DNA of 64,000 bases from Apiotrichum sp. Y4204. Its lineage: Eukaryota; Basidiomycota; Tremellomycetes; Trichosporonales; Trichosporonaceae. Each line of letters starts with the position of its first letter. Position 1 is the first letter of the stretch. The DNA is taken from NCBI GenBank assembly GCA_025531455.1, contig JAMYHL010000012.1, positions 1 through 64,000 on the forward strand, in the 5' to 3' direction. The notes beneath the pieces are model-generated. The model saw only the letters and a list, made by a program, of their open reading frames with translations. It searched no databases and was not told the origin of the DNA. Below are positions 52,938 through 59,338 of this stretch, one piece after another. The position numbers and the translations under genes were made by a program.

Positions 52938-54134
52938 CTACGCCTTTGCTTTCTCGGTGCCCAGCTCCCCCTCCGAGAGGACCTTTCCGTCAAGCTTCTC
53001 CATGACCTCGCGGCCGAGCTCCTTGATGCGCTCGACGTCGTGGCCGATAAGGCTGACGTGCACGCCCTGGTAGAGATACGGGTCTAAGCGGTCAGTATTT
53101 GGTCTTGTGCTGCCGCTTACATGAGCCGACGCGGATGCCCTCGTTTTTCACGCGAGCTTGAAGCTCGGTGAGATATGGCGCAATCTTTGATTCGGGCATT
53201 CTGACGGTTAGATTGCGAGTAATTCTTGTAACCCACGAAGTGAAGATAAGGTGGCGGAACGGCTTTGCCGATGCAGGAGGCAGCGGGAGGTAGGGAGTCA
53301 GGCCGAGGAGGAGCTGCTGGAAGAGGCTCGGGATTCCGGGGAAGACACAGAGCTGTATGTGTCAGCCCAGAATGTCTCAGATACCCACCTTCCCGGCGAG
53401 GCGAACAACCGGCACCCAGCGGTCGTCGGTGACGAAGAGGACCTCGCTCTTGGTCGCGTCTCCCTCCTTTGAAACGGGGAAGAGCGCCATGCGGTTCCGC
53501 GCCTCGCGCTCCTCTGGAGTGGCGGCCTCGAGCTCAGCAAGGCGCTTGGCCGGGGTCATGACCTTCATTCGGCGGAGGGTCTCCTCGTCGTGCTCCATGG
53601 GGAGGCCAAAGGCCTTGCCAAGGGACTCATACGTGAGATCTAACGCGTCAGACACGAGTACAGCGCCAGCACGCACCGTCATGAGTGGGACCTATGCCGC
53701 CGGAAGTCACAACAAAGTCGTAGTTTTTGCACATCCGGCGTGCAGTCTCAATGCTGACCGGTCAACGAAGGAATGCGTCTCAACCCACATCTCTTCCTCC
53801 ACATCCGGAATCACCTCAATACGCTTCCTGGCCGTCAGTTCGGGCCAGATCGGAAACTTACAAGTCGATTCCAAGATCAAAACAGAACTGCGCGAAGAAG
53901 CTTCACATTAGGATACGCGAAGCACCGAACAACCCACTTGCTGTTCGTGTCCTTGGTCTTGCCGTTGAGCACCTCATCACCGATAACGATGCATCCCGCT
54001 GTCCTGGGGGTCAGACTGATGTCCAGCGTGCTTTGGAAAAAGAGGTCAAGCACGCACCGAATGTAGTTTCCCTCGCCAAGGGGGTTGGGCACGCTGGCCG
54101 GGTCCGTCGGTGGGCACTTTGCAGACGACGCCAT
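52938..54134 (-). CDS. MoaB/CinA-type (MoCF domain) molybdopterin-binding-like protein
   Basis: The ATG at 54134 gives MASSAKCPPTDPASVPNP, then, after a phase-2 intron, TAGCIVIGDEVLNGKTKDTNS. Next is KWVVRFCFDLGIDLKRIEVIPD, and [22 protein letters not shown] carries the [10 protein letters not shown] loop of the MoCF fold. Then come LGKAFGLPMEHDEETLRRM and FPGIPSLFQQLLLGL near the C-terminus. This is the eukaryotic branch related to CinA and the N-terminal domain of FAD synthase. MoaB/Mog relatives bind molybdopterin or act as nucleotide/FAD pyrophosphatases, so the substrate cannot be fixed. At least seven short introns occur, several with conserved phases. It is tandem with Nup82, with 261 bp between them. 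Confidence 0.82.
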
Positions 54135-54744
54135 TGTTCGTGCGCGGAGGAGAAGGCTCGAAGTTGGGAATACCGGAGGGAATAACTGTCTCTTTGGGAC
54201 GTTTATACACAGTCTTGAGGTGGATAGGATCGTTCTGCAGAGCATCAAGACGAGATGACCACGAGCGGTGAATGAATGGGTGTTGGTTGCTGAACTGTTG
54301 TCGAGATGAGAGCTGGACGTCATCACACCTGCTCCACCGTCTATCTTCCCGATCTTCGCGATGTCATCACGCGACTAACCACCATGCCCATGTGCCCACT
54401 CGCTGGTCATGCCTCCACATTCCCCACCGACGCGAAAGACAAGCCAATCCTTAAATCATCCACCCTTTTATCAGTGTCAATCGAAAAAAATCACACGTCA
54501 CATTTGACAAGGAAATCCAACGGATCACAACACACCGAGTGGCCACCTGATTCAGCTCCTTCATCCCACCATTTGGCCGCTCGGCGCCATCACAGTCCCT
54601 GTTGACAACATCTTATCCGCATCGTACCCGACGACCGGCACGAGCAGGCCCCCCAGGGCGACTCCGCATCGTGCCGACCACGCCGAACCCTACACGCCCA
54701 TACCACTCTCATCTCCCGACTAGCACTCCGGACTTTACGACACT
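54135..54744. promoter_or_regulatory. Divergent promoter between the MoCF gene and the fusion transcription factor
   Basis: 610 bp with AT-rich sequence around 54450-54540 and a C-rich leader just before the ATG at 54745. No additional gene is supported. Confidence 0.5.
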
Positions 54745-57700
54745 ATGAGCGAAAACGCCGCATCTCACGGTCAGGACGCGGCGCAGGTCCACCCTCCACT
54801 GGTCCTCGACCCACCAGAACCCGAGCCAGAGACCCAGCCCGAGCCGAATCCTCCGCCATCCAACCCACCAACCAACACTCAGACCGGTGACGCTGATCCT
54901 GGGGACTCTACTGCACACGCAGGGGGTGCAGTGACTGTTCCCGATGCATCCGATGCTGCTGGGGCGACCGCCGAGGAGGACGCGGCGCCACCGACAGAGG
55001 TTGAGGCTTCGACGGAGCCGCCACCAGCCGCCGTCACTACTGAGGCTAGCGATACCGACCAATCGGCTCCACCAGCGGCTCCTGGATCGTCTGAAGCTAT
55101 CGAGAACCCAGGGACAGCTCCAGATGAGACGCTCGACACTGATCTCGTGGCCGCGGCGGCGGCAGCAGCAGAAGCGGCGGCCGAATTCGACAACACGGAT
55201 CTCGACAACGACAATCTTGATGATGAGTCACTCCGTCTCGCAGCCGCATTGAGTGCTATCCCACCTGAAGACGATGTCGACGTCGATGTGGATGCCGAGA
55301 ACCATCTCGACCCCGATACGCTCGCGAACCTTGCGGCACTTACCGCCATTCCGGATGACGAGGAAGGCGCTACCGAGGGCCAGGTTGACATCGATGTCGA
55401 CATGACAATTGAGCCAGAAGCACCGGCACAAGCGGGAGACACCTCGGCTCCAGCGGAAGCGGCTCCCCCTGAGCGTCCGGAGGAGGACGATTTCGCCAGC
55501 CTGCTGCGGGATGATGCGTTCACCAACCAGGAGGTGGATGATATAGTGGCCAGGCTCCTTCCCCCCGAACAGGACACCGCCGCACAGAGGGACGCCGCCT
55601 CTAAGACAGCAACGCCGCGAGTGGAAGCGGAGGGGGAATCTGAGCAAGAGGCTTCAGGAAACGATACTGGAGACACCGAGTACCGCGCACCCCGCACGTA
55701 TTACGAGGACGGCAAACTGAAACGGAGACGGAATAGGACCGTCTTGAGTTGTACAGAGTGCCATCGGAGGGTGAGTGCCTTGTGATAATCATAGCTCCTG
55801 CTGACTTTCCAGAAACGTATGTTCATCGATTTGCCGCGGAGTGTATACTGACCTTCTTTCTCTTCGTCAATACAGAGCTGGTGAGCTGCCCACATGTTTC
55901 TTCAGTTGACGCCAGTGTGATCGCAATATCCCCTGCAGCCGATGTGTGAAGCGCGGCGTTCCAAGCATGTGTCGAATGGAGTCGGTGACACCGCAGCGGA
56001 AGAAGAAGAAGTGCGTGTTGCGTACCATAAGCTGCTGACGTTGAAGGGGTAACGATGACATCCGCATCAACTACGAACTCGGTTTACGGGTGCAGGCGCT
56101 CGAATCGCTCATTCGCTCCGGGTCGAATGTCGATCCAGAGGCAGCACAGACAGCGGCATTGGAAACCGTCATGCAGGCGACACGAGCGGCGAACAACGGA
56201 CAGCCTGAGGCTGCGAACGCTCTGATGCAGCTCACCAGCGCTGGAGCCAGTCTGGACATGGGCCTGTCACCAGATGTGCAGAACACCATGTTGTTAGATG
56301 TCCTCCAGCAGCTTTCAGCGGCTAGCATTGGACGGCCCTCGGAAATTCTGAACATCGACACGAACGGTACTGCAGCTGCTGAACCGAAGGACATGTGGTC
56401 TGCTGTTCCTGCTGTAGTGGCTGATAATGCGCCGCCAGTCGACGACGTATCCAACGACAATGATGAGATGTCGGAGACCAAGCTTAATCTGGCGGTCCCA
56501 GGATTTCGTGAGGCTAGCGGGCGGGTGTTCCTTCCTCCAACGATGCGCCACGCCGAGAAGCGGTTACGGGACACGAATCTGTTCAACCCCGGCGTCCTGC
56601 CTGTCCAAGGGTTTGAACCGTTTCTGGAGTGCGGAACGCGCTTCGCGTATGGGGAGGAGAATATTCCGTTCAAGCACAAGCGTATCGCGGCGATCCAGAC
56701 AATCAGCATCACCGGAGGACTCCGCCTCGCGTCCACCTTCTTGTCGCGATTCCCTGCTCTTACGACGCCGACGGACACACGTTTTGTCTATGTCCCCCTA
56801 CCGTCTGTCGAGGAAGATGTTGCTGCCTTACGGGCTGGGGGCCTGAAGGTCAAGTACTATCGTTTTCTCGACCGGAAGACCGGTATGGTCGACTGGGAAG
56901 GAATGCGGGATGACCTGCAGCGCGCCCCTCCTCGCTCTGTCGTGCTTTTGCACGTCAGCGGGTCAACGCCGACCGGCCTCGAGCTCACCGCCCCGCAGTG
57001 GCGCCTGCTGACGACTCTCCTCCAAGGCCGGCAACTCATTCCGCTTGTGATCATGGCGTTCCAGGGCTTGGCGAGCGGGGACCCCAGCCGCGACGCGCAG
57101 CCTTTGCGATTCATGGTGCATGAGGGGTTGCCCGTGGTTTTAGTGCAGAGCTTTGACGCGGTGGGTTGGGTCGTTGTGCACATTCATCTAACCCACCAGA
57201 TGATGGGCTTGTATGCCGATAGTCCATCGATCGTTTCCATCGCGACACAGAACACGGACGACCGCGACCGCGTCAACTCCCAGCTCCGCACTATTGCGCG
57301 TTCAATGTATCTACACCCGCCGCTGTGGGGCGCCAAACTGGCGCACATGGTGCTCGACGATCCGAAGCTGTTCCCGGCCTGGCTTGCGGAGATTAAGGCC
57401 TTGTCCGAACGCCTCCGCAGCGTGCGCGACAAGCTGTGCGACATTTTTGCTGTCAAGCTCAAGACACCCGGCAGCTGGACACACCTGCGGCGCGGAGTGG
57501 GAATGTACTGCGTCCTTCTCCTTCCCGCCCCGCAGCTCGAGGCACTCACACAGAAACGCCAGGTCCACCTGCTCCGCGAGGGGTGTATTTCCCTGGGATG
57601 TCTGGACGTGAGCAAGATCGAGTCGCTAGCGCGCTCCGTCGACTGGGTGGTGCGCGAGTCGATCCGCGAGGCCGAGGAGCAGCAGGCGCAGAGCCTGGCG

Positions 57701-57976
57701 ATGGAGCTCGCGCTCCAGGCCGCGACGGAGCAGCAAGCGCGCGAGGAGGCAGAGGCTGCCGAGGCCGCCGCTGCCGCCGAAGCGGCCGCCGCCCAGGCCG
57801 AGGACGCGATGCTCATCGAAGCGTCGATCCAGACTGCGATGGAGGCGCAGCGCGTCGAGGAAGAAGAGGAGCGCAGGCGCGAGGAGGAGTCGCGTCTTCT
57901 CGAGGAGCAGGTGCGCAAGGCTGCCGAAAGAGCAGAGCTCGAGCGACAGGCTGAGCTTATTCTCGCGTCGATATAG
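54745..57976 (+). CDS. Zn2Cys6 transcription factor fused to a degenerate aspartate-aminotransferase-like domain
   Basis: Six exons (54745-55770, 55813-55816, 55876-55880, 55916-56010, 56047-57160, 57200-57976) sum to 1006 codons plus stop. Residues 1-330 are acidic, Pro/Glu/Asp-rich and disordered. Residues 336-364 form a full Zn2Cys6 cluster with spacing C-x2-C-x6-C-x5-C-x2-C-x8-C, beginning CTECHRRKQLCDRNIPC, then a KKKK patch and a short helix that could dimerise. Residues about 521-903 match type-I aspartate aminotransferase end to end: VLPVQGFEPF, QTISITGGLRLAS, YRFLDRKTGMVDWEGM, AFQGLASGD, SQLRTIARSMYLHPPLWGA, GMYCVLLL, ISLGCL. The PLP lysine position is Ala748. Residues about 903-1004 are an Ala/Glu-rich coiled coil. 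Likely a DNA-binding regulator with a non-catalytic ligand or dimer domain (inference). Confidence 0.88.
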
Positions 57977-58474: not shown

Positions 58475-59338
58475 CTAGATCTTCGGCGCGGTCTCGAGCT
58501 TCTTGACCTCCTCGAGACACTCGTCGAGGCCCTCCTTCCACTCGGCGGTCTCCTCGGCGGTGGGCGCCTTGGCGTCCTTGCCGCGCTTGATTGGTGTAGA
58601 GCTGGCGTGAGATTATGAACCAATAATTCCCAGTGATGATCACCGGACTCACCAGACGAGGACACACGAGGTGGCGCGCTTCGTTCCCGATGCGGCGCCG
58701 AGCTCCTCCCTGTCGTGTGAGCATTCGACCAACCAGGCAATATCATCAAAGACTCACTTGCTCACAACCCAGCAGTACTCGACACCAGCCGCGTCCTCGG
58801 CGAGGACGGGCAGGTGAGAGAGAACGTCAATCGGGGTGATGTTGGCGGCGAGGACGAGCAGGCCCTTCTCGCCCTTACGCAGCGCCTTGACGACCTCCTT
58901 GACGCCGCGCTTCAGTTGGCGTGCCTTGCTCGCACGCTTCACTGTCTTGAACACCTTCTTTGACAGCTTCTTGCCGGCCAGCGGCACCGCAATCGGGGTG
59001 ATCGCCTCGAGGGGAACCTCAAACTCCTGCCATGTCAGTTTACAGTCTACGGTGGGCTTGGGTGGACGGTCGGATGAGAATGTTTACTGGCATCCGAGCA
59101 CACTTGCTGCCGTATTCAATCCAAAAGTCGAGACTCCAGACATCCAGCAGCCGGCGACATGGGAAGCATTCAGTTCCCCCGTCGCTATCCCACCAGCACT
59201 CGCGCCCACACGCACCTTCTTGTCCTCGCCCTCGTCGGCAGCCAGGGACTTGCGCTTCTCCTTCTTGGCCTTCTTGTCCGCGGCGTCGAGCTCGGCAACG
59301 TCGCTCTTGCGCTTCTTCTTGGTCTCGTCCTTGGCCAT
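58475..59338 (-). CDS. NHP2: H/ACA snoRNP protein NHP2
   Basis: The start MAKDETKKKRKSDVAEL opens a Lys-rich 41-residue exon. After an intron of about 190 nt, the L7Ae domain reads EFEVPLEAITPIAVPLAGKK, KRGVKEVVKALRKGEKGLLV, LAANITPIDVLSHLPVLAED, VEYCWVVSKEELGAASGTKR and ATSCVLV. The ITPIDVLSHLPVL and SKEELGAASGTKR blocks are diagnostic of NHP2 rather than Snu13 or Rpl8. NHP2 binds the kink-turn region of H/ACA RNAs in complexes that pseudouridylate rRNA and snRNA. A C-terminal tail of about 40 acidic residues (GKDAKAPTAEETAEWKEG) is longer than in yeast. Three introns are visible. The gene is divergent from the aldehyde dehydrogenase gene with 354 bp between starts. Confidence 0.92.

Follow-up and report, generated by a model that had tools for sequence, protein, structure and literature searches.

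A gene in the genome of Apiotrichum sp. Y4204 joins a Zn2Cys6 zinc cluster to a complete aspartate-aminotransferase (AspAT) fold that has lost PLP-binding residues. It lies at 54745-57976 (+) of the window, a 64,000-nt stretch of DNA (contig JAMYHL010000012.1, positions 1 to 64,000), and is conserved in two copies under purifying selection. The explanation that we consider probable is that this one spliced gene encodes a Zn2Cys6 transcription factor whose regulatory domain is a recruited AspAT duplicate without catalytic function, that the AAT fold dimerises the zinc clusters, and that the cleft binds a protein partner or a non-PLP effector. It seems that an enzyme of metabolism has become the non-catalytic component of a gene regulator.

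Gene structure and splicing

Six exons splice to one frame of 1006 amino acids with a single terminal stop (Table 1), which reproduces the coordinates and the spliced frame given by an initial annotation of this DNA. The five introns, of 42, 59, 35, 36 and 39 nt, all run from GT to AG. Between 55771 and 55915, three introns and two micro-exons (4 and 5 nt) interrupt the zinc-cluster codons. Clusters of this kind may escape intron-blind searches, and the 117 zinc-cluster matches listed for the genome include neither copy of the gene.

Table 1. Exons and the two 3'-most introns of the zinc-cluster/aminotransferase gene; coordinates are positions in the window
Feature	Coordinates	Strand	Content
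Exon 1	54745..55770	+	Start, acidic/Ala/Pro-rich N-terminal region (residues 1-325), beginning of the zinc cluster (336-342)
Exon 2	55813..55816	+	4-nt micro-exon AAAC; identical in the C170 copy; required for the HRRKQLCDR reading
Exon 3	55876..55880	+	5-nt micro-exon AGCTG; present in 10/10 motif-giving splicings
Exon 4	55916..56010	+	Remainder of Zn2Cys6 (ends at residue 364, base 55972), then the basic tail QRKKKK
Intron 4	56011..56046	+	Joint between DNA-binding and aminotransferase parts; read-through leads to a stop in both copies
Exon 5	56047..57160	+	Linker (378-515) and start of the predicted pseudo-aminotransferase; last residue A748, aligned to PLP lysine 258
Intron 5	57161..57199	+	39 nt, stop-free; 38 nt in the C170 copy
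Exon 6	57200..57976	+	Remainder of the predicted pseudo-aminotransferase (to residue 903, base 57664), Ala/Glu-rich 904-1006, stop

Possible splicings were enumerated with at most four introns of 30-200 nt and were counted only if they ran on in frame into exon 5; the joining of exon 5 is thereby a condition of the count and not a result. The enumeration gave 18421 open splicings, 10 of which contain the Zn2Cys6 motif. Common to all 10 are the AGCTG exon, intron 3 and an intron whose last base is 56046. The AAAC exon is found in three of them; the remaining seven take a donor at 55775 and read HRRVKLCDR, so the use of this micro-exon is a prediction. The donor of the AAAC reading, GTGAGT, was judged by eye to be the better one, and HRRKQ is, as we take it, the usual run in Zn2Cys6 clusters. 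An accident of splice choice was considered as the source of the motif and rejected, given its rarity among the splicings (10/18421), the 5-nt exon and intron 3 common to all of them, and the retention of the scheme in the second copy on contig C170.

A zinc cluster joined to an aminotransferase fold

The initial annotation had placed a perfect Zn2Cys6 cluster at residues 336-364 and an aminotransferase domain at about 521-903, and had suggested a Pfam search and a structure prediction as checks. Both assignments hold, with Zn_clus and Aminotran_1_2 each matching above the Pfam cut-off. The cluster, CTECHRRKQLCDRNIPCSRCVKRGVPSMC at residues 336-364, shows the CX2CX6CX5-12CX2CX6-9C spacing of Zn2Cys6 factors, contingent on the micro-exon splicing; the Zn_clus match covers residues 335-365 (27.0 bits, cut-off 21, E 4.8e-6). 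N-terminal residues 1-325 include 80 D/E versus 10 K/R. By its sequence the protein qualifies as a Zn2Cys6 member and is a candidate transcription factor. It resembles Gal4-class factors in its Cys6 motif above the Pfam cut-off, its basic tail and its acidic region, and differs from them in the pseudoenzyme that forms its C-terminal part. A Pfam search of the 1006-aa protein, taken to E 1, matched no fungal-specific transcription factor middle domain, which is a further difference, and no GntR domain. The middle domain is common but not universal in Zn2Cys6 factors, and an excerpt of PMC4391232 gives it for 40 of the 78 such factors of C. neoformans.

The aspartate-aminotransferase domain is complete (residues ∼516-903), as in the type-I AspAT-like domain of bacterial MocR/GabR regulators. 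Aminotran_1_2 matches residues 521-875 with 96.4 bits (cut-off 19.7, E 2.6e-27), and the closest PDB chain is a mitochondrial AspAT (E 3.6e-68, 377/386 residues covered). The only NCBIfam match of this half is an aromatic transaminase family below its cut-off (214.7 bits, cut-off 377). An AlphaFold model has pLDDT 80.9 and pTM 0.83, and the fold has AspAT hits; the match is partly built in, because the input alignment consisted of AspATs, and the input reading retained the 13 residues of intron 5. The Ala/Glu-rich stretch of 103 residues that follows (904-1006) is helical in the model up to residue 914, where the model ends.

The same genome encodes two AspATs with a mutual identity of 70%, each of which is 37% identical to the fusion domain over ∼300 residues. 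Compared with 80 bacterial relatives, identity averages 29% (26-31%) for the fusion domain and 44% for the own-genome AspAT C109. By these figures the fusion domain appears to be nearer to the fungal AspATs of its own genome than to bacterial ones, and far diverged. The fusion thus shares its fold with AspATs of the GOT1/GOT2 type, and differs from them in its fused DNA-binding domain and in its active site.

Loss of the PLP site

The alignment to mitochondrial AspAT runs through the active site without gaps, with QSYAKNMGLY opposite QSFDAMMGLY. In what we take to be standard AspAT numbering, for which mutant titles in the PDB (K258H, D222T, H143L, Y225R/R386A) support several labels, 11 residues are replaced: Y70V, G108I, W140V, H143D, N194T, D222I, Y225F, K258A, R266S, S296L and R386C. 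The catalytic Lys258 is A748 of the fusion protein, D222 is I712 and N194 is T684. The old site retains T109, H189, P195, G197, S255 and R292.

At each of the 11 lost sites, all 80 bacterial relatives carry the ancestral residue; these are the best 80 of 518, an uneven sample that is largely from Betaproteobacteria. They were picked by two peptide patterns, one of which permits D/I at the PLP aspartate and Y/F at the tyrosine, and the count includes eight whose frame ends before the match end and five shorter than 400 aa. The own-genome AspAT C109 has the ancestral residue at all 10 lost sites within its exon.

Intron 5 directly follows the codon for A748, opposite the PLP lysine; the own-genome AspAT genes, inspected by eye, have no intron at this position. 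A wrong intron call was considered as the cause of the lysine loss. Neither AAA nor AAG occurs in any forward frame of 57141-57220 or of the C170 equivalent; no alternative splicing around intron 5 can therefore restore a lysine in either copy, and this cause was ruled out.

On the alignment, then, the aminotransferase domain is a predicted pseudoenzyme, its PLP machinery gone, and it probably serves dimerisation and the binding of a ligand or partner rather than PLP chemistry. Because T109, H189, S255 and R292 are retained, the old site may still bind some ligand.

Comparison with MocR/GabR regulators

In PMC6677901, MocR/GabR proteins, a bacterial GntR subfamily, are described as carrying a DNA-binding domain, a linker and a full AspAT-like fold in one chain, and GabR Asp279 and Lys312 as conserved across all MocR clusters of one survey. 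The initial annotation had proposed the Apiotrichum gene as a fungal counterpart of these regulators. What stands of that proposal is the plan, namely one gene in which a DNA-binding domain, a linker and a full aminotransferase fold follow each other, with Zn2Cys6 in the place of the winged helix. What falls is the PLP chemistry: mapped via D222 and K258 of AspAT, the equivalents of the aspartate and lysine that MocR clusters keep according to that source are I712 and A748. Unlike that of MocR/GabR, the aminotransferase part of the fusion has an animal mitochondrial AspAT as its nearest solved chain.

A true fungal analogue of MocR/GabR would bind PLP non-covalently and sense the level of an amino acid or of PLP. 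The identical domain plan, the persistence of S255, T109 and R292, and the crystallisation of a lysine-less AspAT (K258H, per the title of 1aka) would suit such a protein, but K258, D222, N194, Y225, W140, Y70 and R266 have all been replaced, and the MocR clusters described in PMC6677901 retain the lysine and the aspartate. We regard such an analogue as decidedly improbable. PLP sensing is unlikely because the active-site residues are lost, and a PLP-sensing MocR analogue was discarded on this ground. With the lysine, the aspartate and most PLP and substrate-carboxylate contacts gone, there is also no support for sensing by PLP or by an aldimine-bound amino acid. A ligand other than PLP is possible, and the gene may be MocR-like in layout and not in chemistry.

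The second copy and selection

The C170 copy keeps all six exons, with no stop and no indel across 3021 coding bases, and the GT and AG borders of all five introns. Its introns 1, 2 and 5 have indels of 2, 1 and 1 nt, and intron 5 must be spliced there because its 38 nt would break the frame. Introns 1-3 are 66-71% identical between the copies, intron 4 92% and intron 5 82%.

These two copies also bear on whether two adjacent genes have been wrongly joined, the first a zinc-cluster gene that would end with the intron 4 stop and the second an aminotransferase gene in decay. The joined frame is a product of predicted splicing, and the intron 4 stop, present in both copies, could terminate a short zinc-cluster protein; intron 4 is moreover scarcely diverged (33/36 identical), so that its conservation says little alone. 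However, the joined frame has neither stop nor indel in either copy, dN/dS is 0.021 in the linker (381-515), and the 41 codons from intron 4 to the next methionine, M419, differ by 12 synonymous and 0 amino-acid changes. Since exon 5 holds no ATG before M419, this pattern indicates that the 41 codons are translated from upstream. On the intact frame, the linker and the 41 codons we reject two separate genes, and we give a wrong join only the slightest chance.

dN/dS was estimated between the two copies by the Nei-Gojobori method with our own script. The whole-gene value is 0.072 and spans only the time since the copies separated; together with the lack of stops and indels, it rules out a recent pseudogene. 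The N-terminal region has 0.176, residues 326-380 with the zinc cluster 0 (6 synonymous, 0 nonsynonymous), the aminotransferase domain 0.039 (32 versus 4) and the C-terminal stretch 0 (14 versus 0). As a yardstick, the intact own-genome AspAT pair C109/C46 has 0.046 (12 versus 2), and the pair C127/C115 has 0.116 (10 versus 4), its exons being roughly cut and including some intron codons. The dead domain is constrained no less than the live AspATs of the genome, on small counts. The gene is held by purifying selection, which is strong in the aminotransferase domain.

The domain could also be a ligand-free dimerisation scaffold that replaces the middle homology region of many Zn2Cys6 factors. 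This fits a fold that was kept though most ligand contacts were lost, and the lack of the fungal-specific transcription factor domain among the Pfam matches. Only 3 of 388 domain residues differ between the copies, though, a strong constraint for a mere scaffold, and four residues of the old site (T109, H189, S255 and R292) are still in place. A pure scaffold is a serious alternative that we nonetheless think unlikely, and we continue to prefer a regulatory domain whose cleft or surface binds an effector or partner.

Genome context

The genome (48.9 Mb, 182 contigs) carries genes in pairs. The fusion gene and its C170 copy lie on different contigs, as do the members of the AspAT pairs C109/C46 and C127/C115, and most of the 117 listed zinc-cluster matches, inspected by eye, are paired as well. 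From these sequences the genome looks like a two-subgenome hybrid or a diploid. Hybrids with two subgenomes are described in Trichosporon in an excerpt of PMC6642101. Synonymous divergence is unequal, 0.18 for the fusion gene pair and 0.06 for the AspAT genes C109/C46, a difference that gene conversion in some regions might explain.

Upstream of the fusion gene lies a divergent gene (53377-54374, -). Two pieces of it were scanned and one, 53877-54374, is weakly like the molybdopterin-binding family MoCF_biosynth (E 0.0015, below cut-off). Downstream, a converging gene (58754-59083, -) belongs to the ribosomal L7Ae family (Pfam E 3.2e-15) and is presumably NHP2-like. This neighbourhood gave no clue to a regulon. 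A pattern search of viral contigs returned four hits, with no relative among them.

Discussion

In the explanation that we favour, a duplicate of an AspAT gene would have been recruited into a zinc-cluster protein, where its product would regulate and not catalyse. Relatives with the AAT fold are homodimers, and in the fusion this fold would pair two zinc clusters for DNA binding, and the Ala/Glu-rich C-terminal stretch may provide an extra oligomerisation or partner surface. The former active-site cleft, or the surface around it, would take a protein partner or a non-PLP effector, and this binding would switch the acidic N-terminal region, a putative activation domain, on or off.

Fungi offer a partial parallel in the QutR and GaaX repressors, which, according to PMC6167437, resemble domains of the AROM enzyme and act on Zn2Cys6 activators. 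In the QutA/QutR and GaaR/GaaX systems of Aspergillus, as that source presents them, Zn2Cys6 activators are likewise ruled by repurposed enzyme-derived proteins; unlike in the fusion, the activator has its sensor in a second protein, and the enzyme concerned is AROM instead of AspAT.

We suggest more tentatively, as a conjecture open to considerable doubt, that a eukaryotic lineage independently combined a Gal4-type zinc cluster with an AspAT into a MocR-like regulator and then dropped the PLP chemistry, that the emptied cleft senses another ligand or a partner, and that this is the first pseudo-aminotransferase transcription factor. In a search of open full text, a corpus that leaves most subscription papers outside, the architecture was not described among the matches listed. 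Such proteins may already be catalogued in family databases, and the genome compared here is that of one fungus.

If the favoured explanation is true, a DNA-binding domain and the type-I aminotransferase fold were joined separately in fungi and in bacteria, and this fold, even when stripped of its cofactor, can serve as a regulatory module. The gene would then be a test case for the passage from metabolic enzyme to pseudoenzyme module within one polypeptide, and it could be compared with the two intact AspAT pairs of its own genome.
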